Shown piece by piece: positions 254 through 34,653 of a stretch of DNA of 34,653 nt. Where the stretch lies: assembly GCA_020029545.1 (NCBI GenBank), contig JAIBJL010000003.1, forward strand, positions 1 through 34,653. The letters run 5' to 3'. The stretch's first letter is position 1, and each line of letters opens with the position of its first letter. This DNA is from Gammaproteobacteria bacterium. Its GTDB lineage: Bacteria > Pseudomonadota > Gammaproteobacteria > Steroidobacterales > Steroidobacteraceae. The notes under the pieces are model-generated. The model was not told the origin of the DNA, did no database searches, and saw only the letters and a program-made list of their open reading frames with translations. The position numbers and the translations under genes were made by a program.

Positions 254-1434
254 TCACTTCCCGTGCTTGCTCTCGGGAAACGTCTGCATATGGCGCAGTG
301 AAGGAAACAGGCGCGCCCAGATGCCGGTCACCATGAGCGTCGCGACGCCGCTTCGTTGGATGCCCCGATGAACACCGAACTCACGGCGCTCACGCGACCG
401 CGAATTGCATCGGGCGTTTCCAGCTGCACCAACAGATGCCGGATGTAGACGCTCACCATATCTGCGGCGCCGAGGACCGCCAGCGCGATCAGCGACACCA
501 TGAAGTGCTCGCTCAAGCCGAAGACCACCGTCGCGACGCCGAACACTGCCACGCCGCCGAACATCCATGCGCCCACATGCCGACGCAGCGGGTTGATAGC
601 CAGCACCAGTGCGCAGATGCTCGCACCCAGTCCCGGCGCGGTGCGTAGCAGACCCAACGCCACCGGGCCCGCGTGCAGGATGTCGCGCGCGAAGACCGGC
701 AGCAACGCGACAGCACCGCCAAATAGTACGGCGAACAGATCGAGTGAAATCGCGCCGAGTACGATCGGCCGGCTCCATACGAAACGCAGACCGGACAGCA
801 ATGTGGTCCAGTTCATCGGCTCCGCACGACGTTGTATTCCGGTCTCCGGGCCGATGCCCATCATCAGCACGAAGGCGAGCGCTGCAAGCACGGCTACGGT
901 TGCATACACGGCCGCCGGTCCGGCGAGATACAGCAAGCCGCCCAACGCCGGACCGACGATGGTTGCAATCTGGAAGACCGACGAATTCAACGCGACCGCG
1001 CGCGCGAAGCTTTCCCGCGGCACCAGGTTCGGCAGCAGCGCCTGTCCACTGGGCATCGAGAATGCACGCGCGCAGCCGAGCAGCACCATGGCGGCGAATA
1101 CCGGCCAGAGAGTCGTCAGTTGCCGCAATGTAAAGATCAACAGCAGCAATGCACAGACGGTCGAGACGCCGTAGCACCAGGCGACAATGCGGCGACGGTC
1201 GTAACGATCCGCCACCTGACCAGCGGGCAGGATGAGCACGACAAACGGCAGGAATTGCGACAGACCGATCAGGCCGAGATCGAGCGGATCGTGGCTGATG
1301 TTGTAGATCTGCCAGCCGACGGCAACCGTCTGAATCTGTGCTGCGAGCGTTGCTAGCACGCGCGCACATAGAAATCGTACTAATCCAGGCAGGCGCAACA
1401 CGTCGGCGGCGCGCAAGGTATCGGGCATCGGCAC
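254..1434 (-). pseudogene. MFS transporter (EntS-like), disrupted at the C-terminus by a deletion/frameshift
   Basis: Frame 328..1434 encodes a typical MFS protein up to ...VSSVFIGASNE, then AASRRSW-stop. The expected C-terminus GVATLMVTGIWARLFPSLRHMQTF continues in another frame (254..1369 ORF). Confidence 0.7.
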
Positions 1435-1600
1435 AGCGTACTTAGTTGAAAGTTCCGCAGCATACCGAGCGCGCCGCAGCGCCGCGCAGGTTTATGCACG
1501 CTGCAGGCAAGCACTTATCGAACCTTCACTGCGCAGACACGCTGCATCCTGGTGGCTTGGCGTCTGCGCGGGCGGACCGAAGCCAGACGCGCCCCGGTAC

Positions 1601-3349
1601 TTAGGCGACAGTCTGCACAGCGGTGGAATGCACTGGCAAGGGGAAGGTTACACGCAGCGTCGTCCCGGTATCTCTGGTCAGGGAGAGTTCGCCATGCAGT
1701 TGACGCACGAACGCGTCGATCAACGATCGCCCCAGTCCGCCCGGTTCGGCACCGGACGCAGGATCGAAGCCGATGCCGTCATCGCTGATCGCGACAGTGA
1801 GCACATCGTTGGCACGGCTTACGCGTACTTCGATTCGACCGCGATCGCGTCCGTGGAATGCATGTTTGTAAGCATTGGTGATGGCCTCCGTGACCAGCAG
1901 GCCGAGCGGCACGGCAACTTCAGGGCCGATCGTCTCTTCCGGCGCCTGCACGGTCAGCTCGACATGACGGCCGCCGGCCAGGCCGCCACGACGCAGTTCG
2001 ACGCACAGGTCTTCGAGAAACCATCGCAAGTCCACTTCCTGCAGTGTTTCCGATTCGTAGAGACGGCGGTGCAAAGTCGCCAGCGCGTTGACTCTGCTGC
2101 GCGCGTCGGCAAATGCGGCTTCGGCGCGCGGGTCCTTGATGCGTCGTGCGTGCAGGTTGAGCAGGCTCATCACCAGCTGCAGATTGTTTTTTACGCGATG
2201 ATGCACTTCGCGGATCAAAGCCTCTTTTTGTTTCACCGACTCGCGTAGTTCCAGTTCGCGCGCTGAAATCAGGTCGGCCATGCGCGTGAACGTCTCGCCC
2301 AAACTGCGAATTTCCGCAGGGGCGGCCGCGGCACGCTCCGGCCGGACCGTGTGGCGGCCGGATGCATACGCGGAGGTAATACGTTCAAGATAGGTAATCC
2401 AGCGCACGACCAGATGCTCGATGCCGAACCAGACCACGGCAATGGCGAGCACCCACATCAGGATGGGGGTCAGTACACCCCATGCAACCTGCAGTGCCAG
2501 CGGACCAATGGCCGTCAGCACGGGTGTTCCCATGATCACGAAGATACGGCCACCGAGCAACGGACTCATCGCGTACAGGCGCCAGGTGCCGTCGCGACCG
2601 CGCGTCGTAAACGTCTGCGTGCGCGACGCCAGGTAATCATCAATGAGCGCATCGGGCGGCAGGCCGGACGCGCCACCGCTCGGCGAAGCGTCCGCAGTGA
2701 TCAGATCGCCTTTGCCATCGAGCAACGCCAATGCGGTATCGGACGGCGCAGCTCGCTGATAACGACGGGTCAGCCAGTCCAGGCCGATGAACAAGGCAAC
2801 TGAACCGCGGATGACACCCTCATCATCGAGCAGCGGCACCGCCGTGACCATGCCCCACGAGTCCAACCAGCGAGCGAACACCAGGTCGCTGACGACGAAT
2901 GCATCGCCACTCATGATTTCGCGAAACCAGGCACGATCTTCGGCATCCGTGGCTTTCTTGAGCGGTGTCGAGGTGCAGCTGAAAAAGCCCTTGTCATCGA
3001 TAATGGCCGCGCCCGCATACTGATCGAGGCCGCCGATCGCACGCTGCAACGCACGTCGACACGCGGGCAAGCGTTGGGCCCGAATATCGGGCTGGGCTGC
3101 AAGGCTCGTGAGGATCTCGCGGGATGCGGAGATCATGTTCTCTTCTTCGTTGGCAGCGAGCTGTGCTGCCTGCGCGAGGTTCTGCTCAAGAATCCGCATG
3201 CCGCTGCGATAACTCGAGACCGCCTGCAGTACCGCAAGAACGCCTGGCGCCAGCATTGCGATGCCGACGATCAGGACCAGCCGCGGCCGCAAACCGGCAT
3301 TGCGCCCCCACCAGCGACTCGGACCCGCGGGCGCTTTCTGATTCTTCAT
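1601..3349 (-). CDS. Membrane sensor histidine kinase, HisKA_2/HRXXN type with extracytoplasmic sensor domain; probable general-stress-response kinase
   Basis: ORF 1601..3400; likely start MKNQKAP at 3349. N-terminal TM segment, periplasmic sensor region, second TM, HAMP-like region, phosphoacceptor REVHHRVKNNLQLVMSLLNLHARR, ATPase motifs ITNAYKHAF and DDGIGFD. Directly downstream of ecfG on the same strand. Confidence 0.88.
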   Translation of the reverse strand: MKNQKAPAGPSRWWGRNAGLRPRLVLIVGIAMLAPGVLAVLQAVSSYRSGMRILEQNLAQAAQLAANEEENMISASREILTSLAAQPDIRAQRLPACRRALQRAIGGLDQYAGAAIIDDKGFFSCTSTPLKKATDAEDRAWFREIMSGDAFVVSDLVFARWLDSWGMVTAVPLLDDEGVIRGSVALFIGLDWLTRRYQRAAPSDTALALLDGKGDLITADASPSGGASGLPPDALIDDYLASRTQTFTTRGRDGTWRLYAMSPLLGGRIFVIMGTPVLTAIGPLALQVAWGVLTPILMWVLAIAVVWFGIEHLVVRWITYLERITSAYASGRHTVRPERAAAAPAEIRSLGETFTRMADLISARELELRESVKQKEALIREVHHRVKNNLQLVMSLLNLHARRIKDPRAEAAFADARSRVNALATLHRRLYESETLQEVDLRWFLEDLCVELRRGGLAGGRHVELTVQAPEETIGPEVAVPLGLLVTEAITNAYKHAFHGRDRGRIEVRVSRANDVLTVAISDDGIGFDPASGAEPGGLGRSLIDAFVRQLHGELSLTRDTGTTLRVTFPLPVHSTAVQTVA

Positions 3350-3365
3350 GCCGCGAAGTGGCGCG

Positions 3366-3935
3366 TCAGGAGGTTCCGGACCGTTGCGGAGCGTTGGCAC
3401 TACCGGGCTGGGTATCGAGAAAGGTCAGCGGACCGTTGATCTGGGCCGCATCCGCGCCGAGCAGGTCAACCAGTCGGTCGCGGGCGCGAGCAATGCGGCT
3501 CTTGATGGTACCCACGGCCACCTGGCAAACATCTGCCGCTTCCTCATAAGACAATCCGGTCGCGCACACGAGAATCAGTGCTTCGCGCTGATCGGCCGGC
3601 AGCTCCAGCAACGCGCGACTCAGGTCGCGCAAATGCAGCTTGGCATCGTGGTCAGGCGCGACAGCAACCTGCGCCGCGCAGATGCCATCCGGGTCCTCCA
3701 CTTCGAATTTGCGATGCCGTAGTTCGGAGTAGTAGCAGTTACGCAGAATCGTGAACAACCAGGCTTTGAGATTGCTGCCCGACTGGAATTGTTCACGGTT
3801 GGTCCAGGCTTTCAGCACGGTATCCTGCACCAGATCGTCGGCACGCGCCGGGTCGCCGCACAGCGAGCGTCCGAACGCGCGCAATGCCGGCAACAGAGCC
3901 GTCACTTGATCGAGAAATTTATCCTGCCCGGACAT
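3366..3935 (-). CDS. ecfG: ECF sigma factor, EcfG (ECF15)-like general stress sigma factor
   Basis: ORF 3366..3959; likely start MSGQDKF at 3935. Region 2 FGRSLCGDPARADDLVQDTVLKAW; region 4 LPADQREALILVCATGLSYEEAADVCQVAVGTIKSRIARARDRL. Adjacent to NepR. Confidence 0.88.
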   Translation of the reverse strand: MSGQDKFLDQVTALLPALRAFGRSLCGDPARADDLVQDTVLKAWTNREQFQSGSNLKAWLFTILRNCYYSELRHRKFEVEDPDGICAAQVAVAPDHDAKLHLRDLSRALLELPADQREALILVCATGLSYEEAADVCQVAVGTIKSRIARARDRLVDLLGADAAQINGPLTFLDTQPGSANAPQRSGTS

Positions 3936-3955
3936 GTTGTTATTCGACCACGGCC

Positions 3956-4138
3956 TCAACGACCGCGCTCCTTGTCTTCGAGCTGCTTCAAGAGCGCTTT
4001 GAATTCATCAGGCACGGGTTCTTCCATCACATCGGTGAACATACGTCGCAGGCGGCCACTCAACCAATCGGGGACTTGGTCGAGCGGTGTGCCGTCCGGT
4101 GCCAATGCCGCAGGGTCTGGCTTGATTTTCTCAGTCAT
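3956..4138 (-). CDS. nepR: NepR-like anti-sigma factor (60 aa)
   Basis: MTEKIKPDPAALAPDGTPLDQVPDWLSGRLRRMFTDVMEEPVPDEFKALLKQLEDKERGR. LRRMFTDVMEEPVPDEFKALLKQLE fits the NepR core; ATG at 4138. Confidence 0.85.
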   Translation of the reverse strand: MTEKIKPDPAALAPDGTPLDQVPDWLSGRLRRMFTDVMEEPVPDEFKALLKQLEDKERGR

Positions 4139-4221
4139 GATGTTCGTCTTCGAGATCATCGGGCGCGCTGTGCGGCAGACTGGATGAATTGACCCAGCTG
4201 AGTCGACTGTCAGTCCACCCA

Positions 4222-4246
4222 AACGCGTAATTTTTGAAAAAGTTCC
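4222..4246 (-). promoter_or_regulatory. EcfG-type promoter upstream of nepR-ecfG (GGAAC-N16-CGTT)
   Basis: Minus strand reads GGAAC TTTTTCAAAAATTACG CGTT; exact match to the known EcfG consensus, 84 nt upstream of the nepR ATG. Confidence 0.8.
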
Positions 4247-4357
4247 AGTCGCTACGGAACCTTTGTTGTAACTCATCCATACTAATACGCTTGCACTCCT
4301 CCCCAAGGATCTCACCTCATCCGAGTGCACGAGTAAACATTCACGGAGTCGACATCT

Positions 4358-5131
4358 ATGGCCCTGGCCCATGCAATCGCCGAACACCTGCCTTACCTGC
4401 GCCGCTACGCACGCGCGCTCTGTGGTACGCAAGCCAGTGGCGATGCTTATGTACGAGCCACGCTGGAAGCGATCATTGCCGACACTTCGGTTCTGAGCCC
4501 GGGACAGCCGCCACGCGTCGGTCTGTATCGAGTGTTTCATCGCATTTGGGGTTCAACGGACACCGAAGCACGATCCATCGCGGGATCAGCCGACGAAGCC
4601 GGCGGGGTCCAAAAGCGGCTTCAAAAGCTGACACCTGCGCATCGCCAGGCGCTGCTGCTCACGGCGATGGAAGGATTCAACGTCAGCGAAACGGCCCACA
4701 TCCTGGGTGTGTCCGAAGCCCAGGTACAACAGATGGTCAGTCAGGCAGTCCGCGAGATCTCCAGTCAGCCCAGCACCCGCGTGCTCATCATCGAGGACGA
4801 GCCGATCATTTCACTGGATCTGCAAAGCATCGTGCGCGAGATGGGACACAGCGTGGCAGCCATCGCAACCACGCGCGATGAAGCTGTACGCGCGGCGCGT
4901 CAATCGGAACCCGGACTGGTACTGGCCGACATCAAGCTGGCCGACGGCAGCTCAGGGATCGATGCCGTGCGACAGATACTGAGCGAAGTGGAAGTGCCGA
5001 TCATTTTTATCACGGCTTATCCGGAACGCCTGCTGACCGGCGAACGCCCCGAGCCTACCTTCCTGGTAACGAAGCCGTTCGTCCCCGAAACAGTACGCGT
5101 CGCAGTCAGCCAGGCATTGCTGTTCGCCTGA
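4358..5131 (+). CDS. phyR: PhyR-like response regulator (sigma-like N-terminal domain plus receiver domain)
   Basis: 257 aa; N-terminal ECF-like half (HLPYLRRYARALCG...LTPAHRQALLLTAMEGFNVSETAHILGVSEAQVQQMV), C-terminal receiver (RVLIIEDEPIISLDLQ...LVLADIKLADG...PIIFITAYPERLLTGERPEPTFLVTKPF). Divergent from nepR. Confidence 0.9.
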   Translation: MALAHAIAEHLPYLRRYARALCGTQASGDAYVRATLEAIIADTSVLSPGQPPRVGLYRVFHRIWGSTDTEARSIAGSADEAGGVQKRLQKLTPAHRQALLLTAMEGFNVSETAHILGVSEAQVQQMVSQAVREISSQPSTRVLIIEDEPIISLDLQSIVREMGHSVAAIATTRDEAVRAARQSEPGLVLADIKLADGSSGIDAVRQILSEVEVPIIFITAYPERLLTGERPEPTFLVTKPFVPETVRVAVSQALLFA

Positions 5132-5755: not shown

Positions 5756-6001
5756 ATGACGAGTCAACGCCGCAGTCGATTCAAGGCATTGGGCTTCGCA
5801 GCACTGGCGCTCGGCGCAACGCTCGCTCTTGCTGCCTGCGAGAAAAAGGGACCGCTTGAACAGGCAGGCGAGGAAGTGGATGAAGCGGTGGGAACCCTGA
5901 AGAATGGCGGCGAGGAAACCACGGCGACGAAAGTCGACGACGCTCTGGATGAGGCCCGCGAAGGAACTCAAGATGCTGCGAATCAACTGAAGAAGGACTG
6001 A
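5756..6001 (+). CDS. Small lipoprotein, Glu/Lys/Ala-rich, 81 aa
   Basis: MTSQRRSRFKALGFAALALGATLALAACEKKGPLEQAGEEVDEAVG...; LALAAC lipobox; GGGAGG ribosome-binding site 7 nt before the ATG. Confidence 0.8.
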   Translation: MTSQRRSRFKALGFAALALGATLALAACEKKGPLEQAGEEVDEAVGTLKNGGEETTATKVDDALDEAREGTQDAANQLKKD

Positions 6002-7026: not shown

Positions 7027-7344
7027 TCACTCAGGCAGGCGGGGAACGTGCGCAGCCGCAGGCTCCTGCAGATCTTCCGGCGTCGAGGTTACGACAACGG
7101 ATTCGGCCGCAATGACGGGTTTCGCCACCTTGCGGGGCGCCTTCTTCTTGCCGGCCTTCTTCTTCGCGACCTTGCCAGCCGCTTTCTTGGCCGTCTTCTT
7201 TGCCGGCTTTCGGGCCGCCTGCTTCGCTACCTTCTTGGCCGATTTCTTTTTCGCCGACTTCTTTACGGTTTTTTTCGCTCGCCCGACACTCTTCTTGCCA
7301 GCCTTCTTGGCTGACTTTTTCTTTCCCTTCTTTTTACTCGCCAT
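7027..7344 (-). CDS. Histone H1-like Lys/Ala-rich DNA-binding protein
   Basis: 105 aa; MASKKKGKKKSAKKAGKKSVGRAKKTVKKSAKKKSAKKVAKQAARKPAKKTAKKAAGK..., repeated KK(S/A)AKK motifs. Confidence 0.75.
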   Translation of the reverse strand: MASKKKGKKKSAKKAGKKSVGRAKKTVKKSAKKKSAKKVAKQAARKPAKKTAKKAAGKVAKKKAGKKKAPRKVAKPVIAAESVVVTSTPEDLQEPAAAHVPRLPE

Positions 7345-32705: not shown

Positions 32706-33626
32706 TCATGCAGCTTCATCCAACGCCGCGCCAAGCGCAATCGCCGGCTGAGTCCTCGTCTCCTGCACCCGGCCATCGAAACGCGGCAGTTTGACGTCGC
32801 GCGCCAGGCCCAATAGGCGCAGCGTCTGGATGCCATACCAATTCAGATCGAACTCGTACCAGCGCAGGCCATGTCGTGCCGACTGCGCATGCGCATGATG
32901 ATTGTTGTGCCAGCCTTCACCGAAGGTCAGCAGCGCCACCCACCAGTTGTTACGCGAATCATCGCCCGTCACGAAGCGCTGCGAACCCCACAGATGCGTT
33001 GCCGAGTTCACCAGCCAAGTGCAATGCAGACCGACGACAACGCGCAGGAAAATCGTCCAGAGCACTACATTCCAACCGAAGATCGCGAGAATCGTGAAAC
33101 CCAATGTGGTCAGCGGCACCCAATGATACCTGCTGATCCAGACATGAAATTTATCCTTGATCAGATCCGGCACCAGCGGCGCCAGCTGTTCGGTCGAGTG
33201 ATGCATGGCCTTGCCGGTCATGATCCAGCCCATATGCGACCACCACTTGCCGTCGCGCGGCGAATGCGGATCGCCCGGCTTGTCGGTGTACTTGTGATGA
33301 GTACGATGCGTCGCGACCCAGAAGATCGGCCCGCCTTCGAGCGCCAGGGTTGCGCACACCGTCATGGTGTATTCGAGCCATTTGGGCGTCTTGTAGCCGC
33401 GATGCGTCAGCAGGCGATGATAGCCCATGCCGATGCCAAGGCCGCCGGCGATCCACCAGAGCGCAACGGCGAGCAGCAAGCCGGTCCAGCTGAAGGCGAA
33501 CAGCGCTGCGACCGCAAGCACATGGAATGCGATCATGAAGAATGGAGTGATCCAGTTCTGCCAGACGGGTGCGGCGGGGGTATCGGTACTCAAGACATAT
33601 CCTCGTGGGTTATCGACGTGGATCAC
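32706..33626 (-). CDS. Acyl-CoA (delta-9 type) fatty acid desaturase
   Basis: 306 aa; histidine boxes HRLLTHRG, HRTHHK, HNNHHA. A TTG start at 33593 is an alternative. Confidence 0.93.
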   Translation of the reverse strand: MIHVDNPRGYVLSTDTPAAPVWQNWITPFFMIAFHVLAVAALFAFSWTGLLLAVALWWIAGGLGIGMGYHRLLTHRGYKTPKWLEYTMTVCATLALEGGPIFWVATHRTHHKYTDKPGDPHSPRDGKWWSHMGWIMTGKAMHHSTEQLAPLVPDLIKDKFHVWISRYHWVPLTTLGFTILAIFGWNVVLWTIFLRVVVGLHCTWLVNSATHLWGSQRFVTGDDSRNNWWVALLTFGEGWHNNHHAHAQSARHGLRWYEFDLNWYGIQTLRLLGLARDVKLPRFDGRVQETRTQPAIALGAALDEAA

Positions 33627-33808: not shown

Positions 33809-33955
33809 GTGGCTTTCAAATCGCGAGCTTTTTTTCAAATCGTCAGTTCCTCAAAAAAATCGCGGGGCGGTAATAATTCGGAGTCTCGGTGCGGAAATCC
33901 CGCATCACCTCACAGCATCACGGGTGGTTCAATGGACCCTGACGGCGTTTCATAA
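33809..33955 (+). CDS. Candidate RiPP precursor peptide (48 aa, GTG start)
   Basis: Manual translation: (M)AFKSRAFFQIVSSSKKSRGGNNSESRCGNPASPHSITGGSMDPDGVS; ends 20 nt before the radical SAM ATG. No strong ribosome-binding site. Confidence 0.35.
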   Translation: MAFKSRAFFQIVSSSKKSRGGNNSESRCGNPASPHSITGGSMDPDGVS

Positions 33956-33975
33956 TTTTCCTGGAGAAGCACGGC

Positions 33976-34653
33976 ATGGACTGCGATGCGCCATCCACCG
34001 GGGTAAAGTTCAGATTGAGCAACTACACGATTTTCGTGGATTTGCCTCATGACGAGTGCTTATTGATTCACGGCTATTCTGGTGCTTGGGACATTGTTGA
34101 TTCCCACCTTGCCCAAGGACTGCGGAGATTCAGACGCGGACCTGCGTTTGTGCCACTGATCGGGCAACCATTTAGCGACGAATCGCCCAACGACGGCGCA
34201 GAGTCTATCGAATGCCTCCCTTGTGACGTGAGCGACCTTCTTGTCAAGAGAGGATACCTTACGACATTGTCGGCAGTCGAAGAGCAAAGCCAAGTATCGA
34301 CACTCGCGACAAACCTGCATGCAATGGCGACCCACGAAGCGCCTTCGTACGTCTTTGCACTCTCGTACGCCTGCAATCTGCGCTGCGCGTATTGTTTTCA
34401 AGACCAATTGAGAACGAAGCCGGAGAATGCGCCAAGACTGGTAGATATGACGCAGGATATGGTGGATCGGATTTTCTCGATAATGCCTGAAATCGAGTCG
34501 CGGCACGGCTGCACGGAGTCACCACGTCCAGTCAGACGAATTACGCTGTTTGGAGGCGAACCCCTGGTGCCACAGTTGCGACCGCTCGTCGAATACGTGG
34601 TCAGTTCTGCCAGATGCAATGGCCCAGCAACGTTATCAGCCGTAACCAACGGT
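33976..34653 (+). CDS. Radical SAM peptide-maturase-like protein, N-terminal 226 codons (truncated by window end)
   Basis: Manual translation: MDCDAPSTGVKFRLSNYTIFVDLPHDECLLIHGYSGAWDIV...YVFALSYACNLRCAYCFQDQ...RRITLFGGEPLVP...SAVTNG. Contains CxxxCxxC and the GGEP motif; GGAG upstream of the ATG. Absent from the ORF track because it runs off the window. Confidence 0.88.
   Translation, partial: MDCDAPSTGVKFRLSNYTIFVDLPHDECLLIHGYSGAWDIVDSHLAQGLRRFRRGPAFVPLIGQPFSDESPNDGAESIECLPCDVSDLLVKRGYLTTLSAVEEQSQVSTLATNLHAMATHEAPSYVFALSYACNLRCAYCFQDQLRTKPENAPRLVDMTQDMVDRIFSIMPEIESRHGCTESPRPVRRITLFGGEPLVPQLRPLVEYVVSSARCNGPATLSAVTNG

Follow-up and report, generated by a model that had tools for sequence, protein, structure and literature searches.

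A rare radical SAM–SPASM locus of the RiPP type with a probable downstream cysteine-cluster substrate in a Steroidobacteraceae genome

Among the described systems closest to the locus considered here, CteB is a thioether-forming RiPP maturase, and QhpD is a SPASM enzyme that generates Cys thioethers within the gamma subunit of quinohemoprotein amine dehydrogenase. The ranthipeptide maturase PapB joins Cys to the β-carbon of Asp in CX3D motifs, with other spacings also being tolerated (PMC9413430). The locus that we report from a gammaproteobacterium of the family Steroidobacteraceae is a rare, uncatalogued radical SAM system of the RiPP type, and its clade lies outside the named NCBIfam families. 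We consider it likely that the locus comprises two genes: one coding for a maturase that unites an RRE-like domain with a radical SAM core and a SPASM domain, and one, downstream, for its 160-aa substrate, with Cys thioether formation as the likeliest chemistry.

The window, i.e., the whole stretch of 34,653 nucleotides that was analysed, spans the whole of contig C301 in a draft genome with 619 contigs. As noticed in the preliminary description, a radical SAM gene with CNLRCAYC and LFGGEPL motifs runs off its right end: a frame opening with an ATG at 33976 stays open through the last base, 34653 (plus strand), and provides 226 codons and no stop in the window. The final 20 bases of the window (34634–34653, plus strand) recur once elsewhere in the genome, at the exact end of contig C26 (L025), oriented such that the gene carries on in frame. 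Joining the two contigs yields a single uninterrupted protein of 518 aa, which is completed by positions 7197–6301 of L025 (G000:C26, minus strand) and aligns end to end with its relatives. A 20-base end overlap would be expected by chance at about 1e-6 across all contig ends of the assembly. In a comparison of 62 contigs, end overlaps were otherwise limited to one 52–53-base repeat-like pair and one 14-base pair; hence, overlaps such as that between the window and C26 are not routine in this assembly, yet this one is far above chance. The exact overlap together with the full-length alignment of the joined protein thus makes it very likely that the two contigs are adjacent in the genome, a placement based on 20 bases shared by two contigs of a draft assembly. 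Gene order in the genus was uninformative as proof of the join, the fetched stretches of five genus members being devoid of the window-side genes. The 52–53-base repeat-like sequence (GCACCCTCTTAGGTGCTTGATTTCGGGAGCGCC...) is common to the ends of contigs C15 and C16 of the same genome (L150 and L151) and may be a dispersed element at which the assembly breaks; it does not occur in the window.

The maturase gene is preceded, about 9 bases ahead of its ATG, by a GGAG resembling a ribosome-binding site; in the gap ahead of the gene, a consensus scan recovered no promoter-like sites and an Rfam search no element. Residues 133–140 (34372–34395, plus strand) constitute the CX3CX2C motif of the SAM-binding 4Fe-4S cluster, CNLRCAYC, and residues 191–197 (34546–34566, plus strand) the GGE motif of the radical SAM core, LFGGEPL; the joined protein matches PF04055 with 35.7 bits (cut-off 29.5). 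Its L025 part, which lies beyond the window, supplies a complete seven-Cys SPASM domain, C389-X12-G402-X4-C407...C448-X2-C451-X5-C457-X3-C461...C477, under the pattern CX9-15GX4C...CX2CX5CX3C...C, and the SPASM model TIGR04085 scores 51 bits against a cut-off of 27. The best named models are NF038107 (CefB, 114 bits) and TIGR04463 (102 bits), with cut-offs of 600 and 525, respectively, and the third-best is NF047865 (PapB) with 87 bits against 340; the CteB-type model TIGR03974 gives 54.7 bits against 425. With all these scores under the curated cut-offs, membership in the CefB, TIGR04463, PapB and CteB-type families was rejected. The maturase is likewise not QhpD, because its TIGR03906 score of 51 bits falls far short of the 453-bit cut-off, and viperin and MoaA, which match in the core, were discarded at scores far under their cut-offs. 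In a sequence search of the PDB, the best match of the joined protein is CteB (E 9e-8).

N-terminal to this core, residues ~13–119 (34012–34332, plus strand) are predicted to form a leader-recognition (RRE) domain, whose signature LLIHGYSGAWDIV is common to the relatives of the maturase. AlphaFold2 predicts a β-β-β-α-α-α arrangement for this region, with a pLDDT of at least about 90 over residues 11–50 and 81–110, and Foldseek places TigE (E 4e-6), the heterocyclase 4v1u and the RRE of TbiB1 (E 0.017–0.037) among the matches of the N-terminal half, the matched TbiB1 structure being that of a lasso-peptide leader-recognition protein with its leader bound. The Pfam PqqD model does not match the N-terminus, so the assignment rests on the predicted fold: of the earlier proposal of a PqqD/leader-recognition-like N-terminus, leader recognition persists as a structural prediction and the match to PqqD falls away.

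Relatives were gathered by scanning one genome per GTDB species with an alignment query that included a Muribaculaceae plasmid homologue, which recovered at least 80 related loci. The maturase's nearest relatives, among the matches listed, have an N-terminal LLIHGYxGAxDxV signature in common; in the tree, the maturase groups on a long branch with a Melioribacteraceae protein (L048) and a Bacteroidota/Balneola group with moderate support (90/91). The closest match, again among those listed, is a fragment from a Hyphomicrobiales MAG (L059) that is broken by assembly gaps and is 40% identical over residues 12–202. The maturase is otherwise rare: searches elsewhere in its order (396 other genomes, E 1e-12) and in its phylum (398 other genomes, E 1e-20) recovered no comparable match, and a class sample queried with half of the protein returned generic radical SAM proteins and one distant full-length homologue (L022, 28%). 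Gene neighborhoods of the nearest clade display a consistent configuration: in all six loci legible past the enzyme gene (L026, L048, L041, L032, L033 and L034), one or two small Cys-containing ORFs lie directly downstream of the enzyme. Most of these precursors combine a leader-like SIEELExRLETDP block with a C-terminal Cys core, and in L032 and L041 an M50-like peptidase comes next, on Pfam matches under cut-offs only. In the sister group from Bacillota and Spirochaetota, the precursors are nif11-like, lie downstream or upstream of the enzyme and in several members end in ...VAGG-CYxxC. Four enzymes and six precursors of these relatives passed no NCBIfam family cut-off other than that of the general SPASM domain model. 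A Foldseek search with the full model of the relative L048 retrieved CteB as the best match (E 6e-18), then TigE and then sulfatase maturases. By analogy with these loci, we infer that the maturase acts on a peptide and that its substrate gene lies downstream.

The survey also yielded observations on individual neighborhoods. One plasmid homologue adjoins an annotated CefA substrate that is itself long (679 aa). In Petrocella, a related radical SAM gene has on its 3′ side a tandem row of three ORFs (L037 7394–8044, plus strand) that resemble precursors and in which short Cys motifs recur (NACAANVTASACGANATVTNCG and similar); one of the three was compared with NCBIfam and Pfam and had no match. 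In Prevotella, a precursor-like ORF adjoining the radical SAM gene (L034 7357–7614, plus strand) displays regular Cys-Gly-Asn-Ser units after an ELExRLETDP leader and likewise has no family match. At L045, a 226-aa ORF ends 299 bases ahead of a related radical SAM gene, which starts at 6001, and codes for a nif11-like leader and a CYTNMTC core that is fused to an intein/Hint-like sequence (CFTGDSEVAVPGGMKHIKDLQVGDKV...), the Hint-likeness being judged by eye only.

Across the join, the maturase stop overlaps the start of an ORF for a 160-aa protein (L025 6304–5822, minus strand) in an ATGA, with a GAGGG just ahead of that start. The protein opens with MTPAKAIGRKLKPEKIKNVVSSLTPINIDVSKLAERLKGGTQIGGGDAGACVIDISCCIIDCSKCAPNDIDIYTDPANEMGG... 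and has all five of its Cys residues (51, 57, 58, 62 and 65) within 15 residues, CVIDISCCIIDCSKC; in a sample of 384 non-overlapping ORFs of the genome, two reach such a density (at least five Cys per 15 residues), this one among them. Cys57-Asp61 and Cys65-Asp69 form CX3D pairs, and about 95 residues follow C-terminal of the cluster. We found no relatives of the protein in Pfam, NCBIfam, PHROGs, the PDB, plasmids or phages, and none in 99 related genomes or in the genomes of six relatives. In a comparison with the sister-group nif11-like precursors, made after a weak match had been noticed, it takes first place among 484 ORFs, but the E-value is 0.28, which is at most a hint of a nif11-like leader. 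A separate equation of its N-terminal IDVSKLAERL with the SIEELEARLE leader of the relatives was a likeness by eye and was set aside, since the first 50 residues do not fit the ELExRLE leader profile (10th of 484). Extension to the right, suggested in the preliminary description, supplied the SPASM cysteines and a downstream Cys-cluster ORF, but no protease or exporter in the 42 kb seen. We regard the 160-aa protein as probably the substrate of the maturase; its length, beyond the 47–96 aa of the relatives' precursors, counts against this role, as do the ~95 residues past the cluster, the poor fit to the ELExRLE leader profile and the failure to find relatives of the protein or a protease or exporter gene near it.

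In the two-gene system that we favour, the N-terminal RRE-like domain would bind the 160-aa protein at its beginning, with the N-terminal 40–50 residues serving as the leader. The 4Fe-4S cluster bound by CNLRCAYC would cleave SAM to a 5′-deoxyadenosyl radical, and the two SPASM auxiliary clusters would be used during the cross-linking of the substrate, with the CVIDISCCIIDCSKC cluster as the modified region. Here, the Cys residues may be converted to thioethers to nearby residues, perhaps to Asp in the pairs Cys57-Asp61 and Cys65-Asp69. The CteB-like folds, the Cys-rich precursors of the relatives and the CX3D pairs together point to such thioether cross-linking as the likeliest chemistry. The motifs of the maturase, its continuation across the join, the Cys cluster and the order of the genes are read directly from the sequence, whereas the leader boundary, the thioether chemistry, its acceptors, the product and the role are putative.

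A different substrate had been suggested in the preliminary description, namely a 48-aa GTG-started ORF (33809–33955, plus strand) directly 5′ of the maturase, which would form a precursor-then-maturase arrangement of the sort common in other families; its basic/hydrophobic start and G/N/S-rich end lent it some appeal. We consider this ORF to be a chance occurrence rather than part of the system and the precursor role to be extremely improbable for it. Its GC by codon position (0.47/0.57/0.45) is non-coding-like and differs from that of all real genes of the locus; when the 349-bp gap is simulated by Markov copies, about 52% of these contain a plus-strand ORF as long or longer; and it codes for a single Cys. 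The family databases had no match to it, and comparison with the sequence beside 87 related loci gave nothing convincing (best E 0.42). Moreover, the clade loci have no conserved small ORF upstream of the enzyme, their precursors being situated downstream, as is the 160-aa candidate here; this is an outcome that the preliminary description itself named as refuting its proposal. The composition, the chance length and the gene order of the relatives largely rule the ORF out as the precursor; the window held a chance ORF, and the likely substrate lies on the next contig. Another reading is that the enzyme matures sulfatases or is some other radical SAM/SPASM protein with a non-peptide substrate, the 160-aa ORF being unrelated to it. 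Sulfatase maturase structures do occur among the Foldseek and sequence matches, as they do for all SPASM proteins, but the anaerobic sulfatase maturase model TIGR03942 scores 58 bits against a 349-bit cut-off, no sulfatase gene adjoins the maturase and the nearest relatives adjoin Cys-containing peptides. The N-terminal RRE-like domain also speaks against this identity, as sulfatase maturases are not known to have an N-terminal RRE. We therefore rejected a grouping with anaerobic sulfatase maturases, and non-peptide substrates in general appear very unlikely. The broader suggestion of a radical SAM RiPP maturase locus, in contrast to that of its precursor, is borne out by the RRE-like N-terminus, the full SPASM domain, the Cys precursors adjoining the relatives and the CteB fold of L048.

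More serious, if still unlikely, is the alternative that the 160-aa product functions as a longer protein, with a structural or metal-binding role or as a subunit of an enzyme, the central Cys segment of which is matured in the manner of QhpD. The ~95 residues past the cluster, the alternation of Cys and Asp within it, the failure to find a protease or exporter nearby and the weak match of the maturase to the QhpD-type model would all fit; indeed, the long stretch after the Cys cluster means that the whole protein, not a short peptide, could be the product. QhpD proper, however, is disfavoured by the unmet TIGR03906 cut-off and by the lack of amine dehydrogenase subunit genes nearby, and the relatives in the clade adjoin short peptides. 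A more specific proposal, which we put forward as speculative and rather doubtful, is that the maturase is from an undescribed radical SAM–SPASM family and that the branch represented by this host cross-links, in place of a short leader-plus-core peptide, the central part of an orphan protein of 160 residues, forming several interlocked thioethers (Cys–Asp or other) in CVIDISCCIIDCSKC and keeping the ~95-residue C-terminal part. If true, a self-contained cassette of only two genes would give rise to a cross-linked product on the scale of a protein.

The composition of the locus sets its two genes apart from their flanks. The maturase gene has a GC of 0.555 (0.59/0.48/0.60 by codon position), and the 160-aa ORF matches it (GC 0.54, GC3 0.59). 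The neighbours have a GC3 of 0.70–0.77, with 0.74 in a fatty acid desaturase gene (0.59/0.47/0.74), 0.77 in a DUF2149 gene and 0.76 in CobN, in agreement with the earlier remark that GC3 is less biased here than in the neighbours. Two genes alike in composition between differing flanks are what one would expect of a two-gene unit between native genes, and both the composition and the rarity in the order are consistent with acquisition of the locus. As for the flanks themselves, a search of 13 other members of the genus (E 1e-60) did not recover the adjoining desaturase (PF00487; window 32706–33626, minus strand). On the other side, L025 carries a cobalamin riboswitch (RF00174, 110 bits; 259–456, plus strand) directly 5′ of a gene for a CobN-like chelatase of 1473 aa (470–4891, plus strand), which is followed by a MotA/TolQ/ExbB-like gene and the DUF2149 gene; the CobN, TolQ-like and DUF2149 set is kept in five other genus members.

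These findings add a clade of peptide-modifying radical SAM proteins that passes no NCBIfam family cut-off, is marked by an N-terminal signature of its own and consistently has the substrate gene downstream, and they point to a substrate candidate with an unusual Cys cluster. They also illustrate that precursors can be misassigned where a contig ends inside a maturase gene. In terms of known systems, CefB (NF038107) and TIGR04463, which have Cys-rich substrates, are the best-scoring models for the maturase and its relatives; the CefB substrate CefA has a Cys at every fifth position, whereas the 160-aa candidate shows no such repeat. The CteB/SCIFF maturase (5wgg, 5why; TIGR03974) is the top fold for L048 and the top PDB sequence match for the maturase, but the locus differs from the CteB/SCIFF systems in having no SCIFF-type precursor. 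From QhpD (TIGR03906) it differs in that no amine dehydrogenase genes are present at the locus. The LLIHGYxGAxDxV clade of Bacteroidota, Balneolota and Ignavibacteriota (L026, L032, L033, L034, L041 and L048) shares its domain build and signature with the maturase at 29–33% identity over the full length and has its substrate gene directly downstream. The clade's precursors, however, are 47–96 aa long and usually pair an ELExRLE leader with a Cys core at the C-terminus, with an M50-like peptidase in some loci, whereas the candidate here is 160 aa long and has a central Cys cluster, with no ELExRLE leader and no peptidase seen. Finally, the two CX3D pairs of the 160-aa protein recall the ranthipeptide maturase PapB (NF047865), the chemistry of which is a candidate for that operating at this locus.
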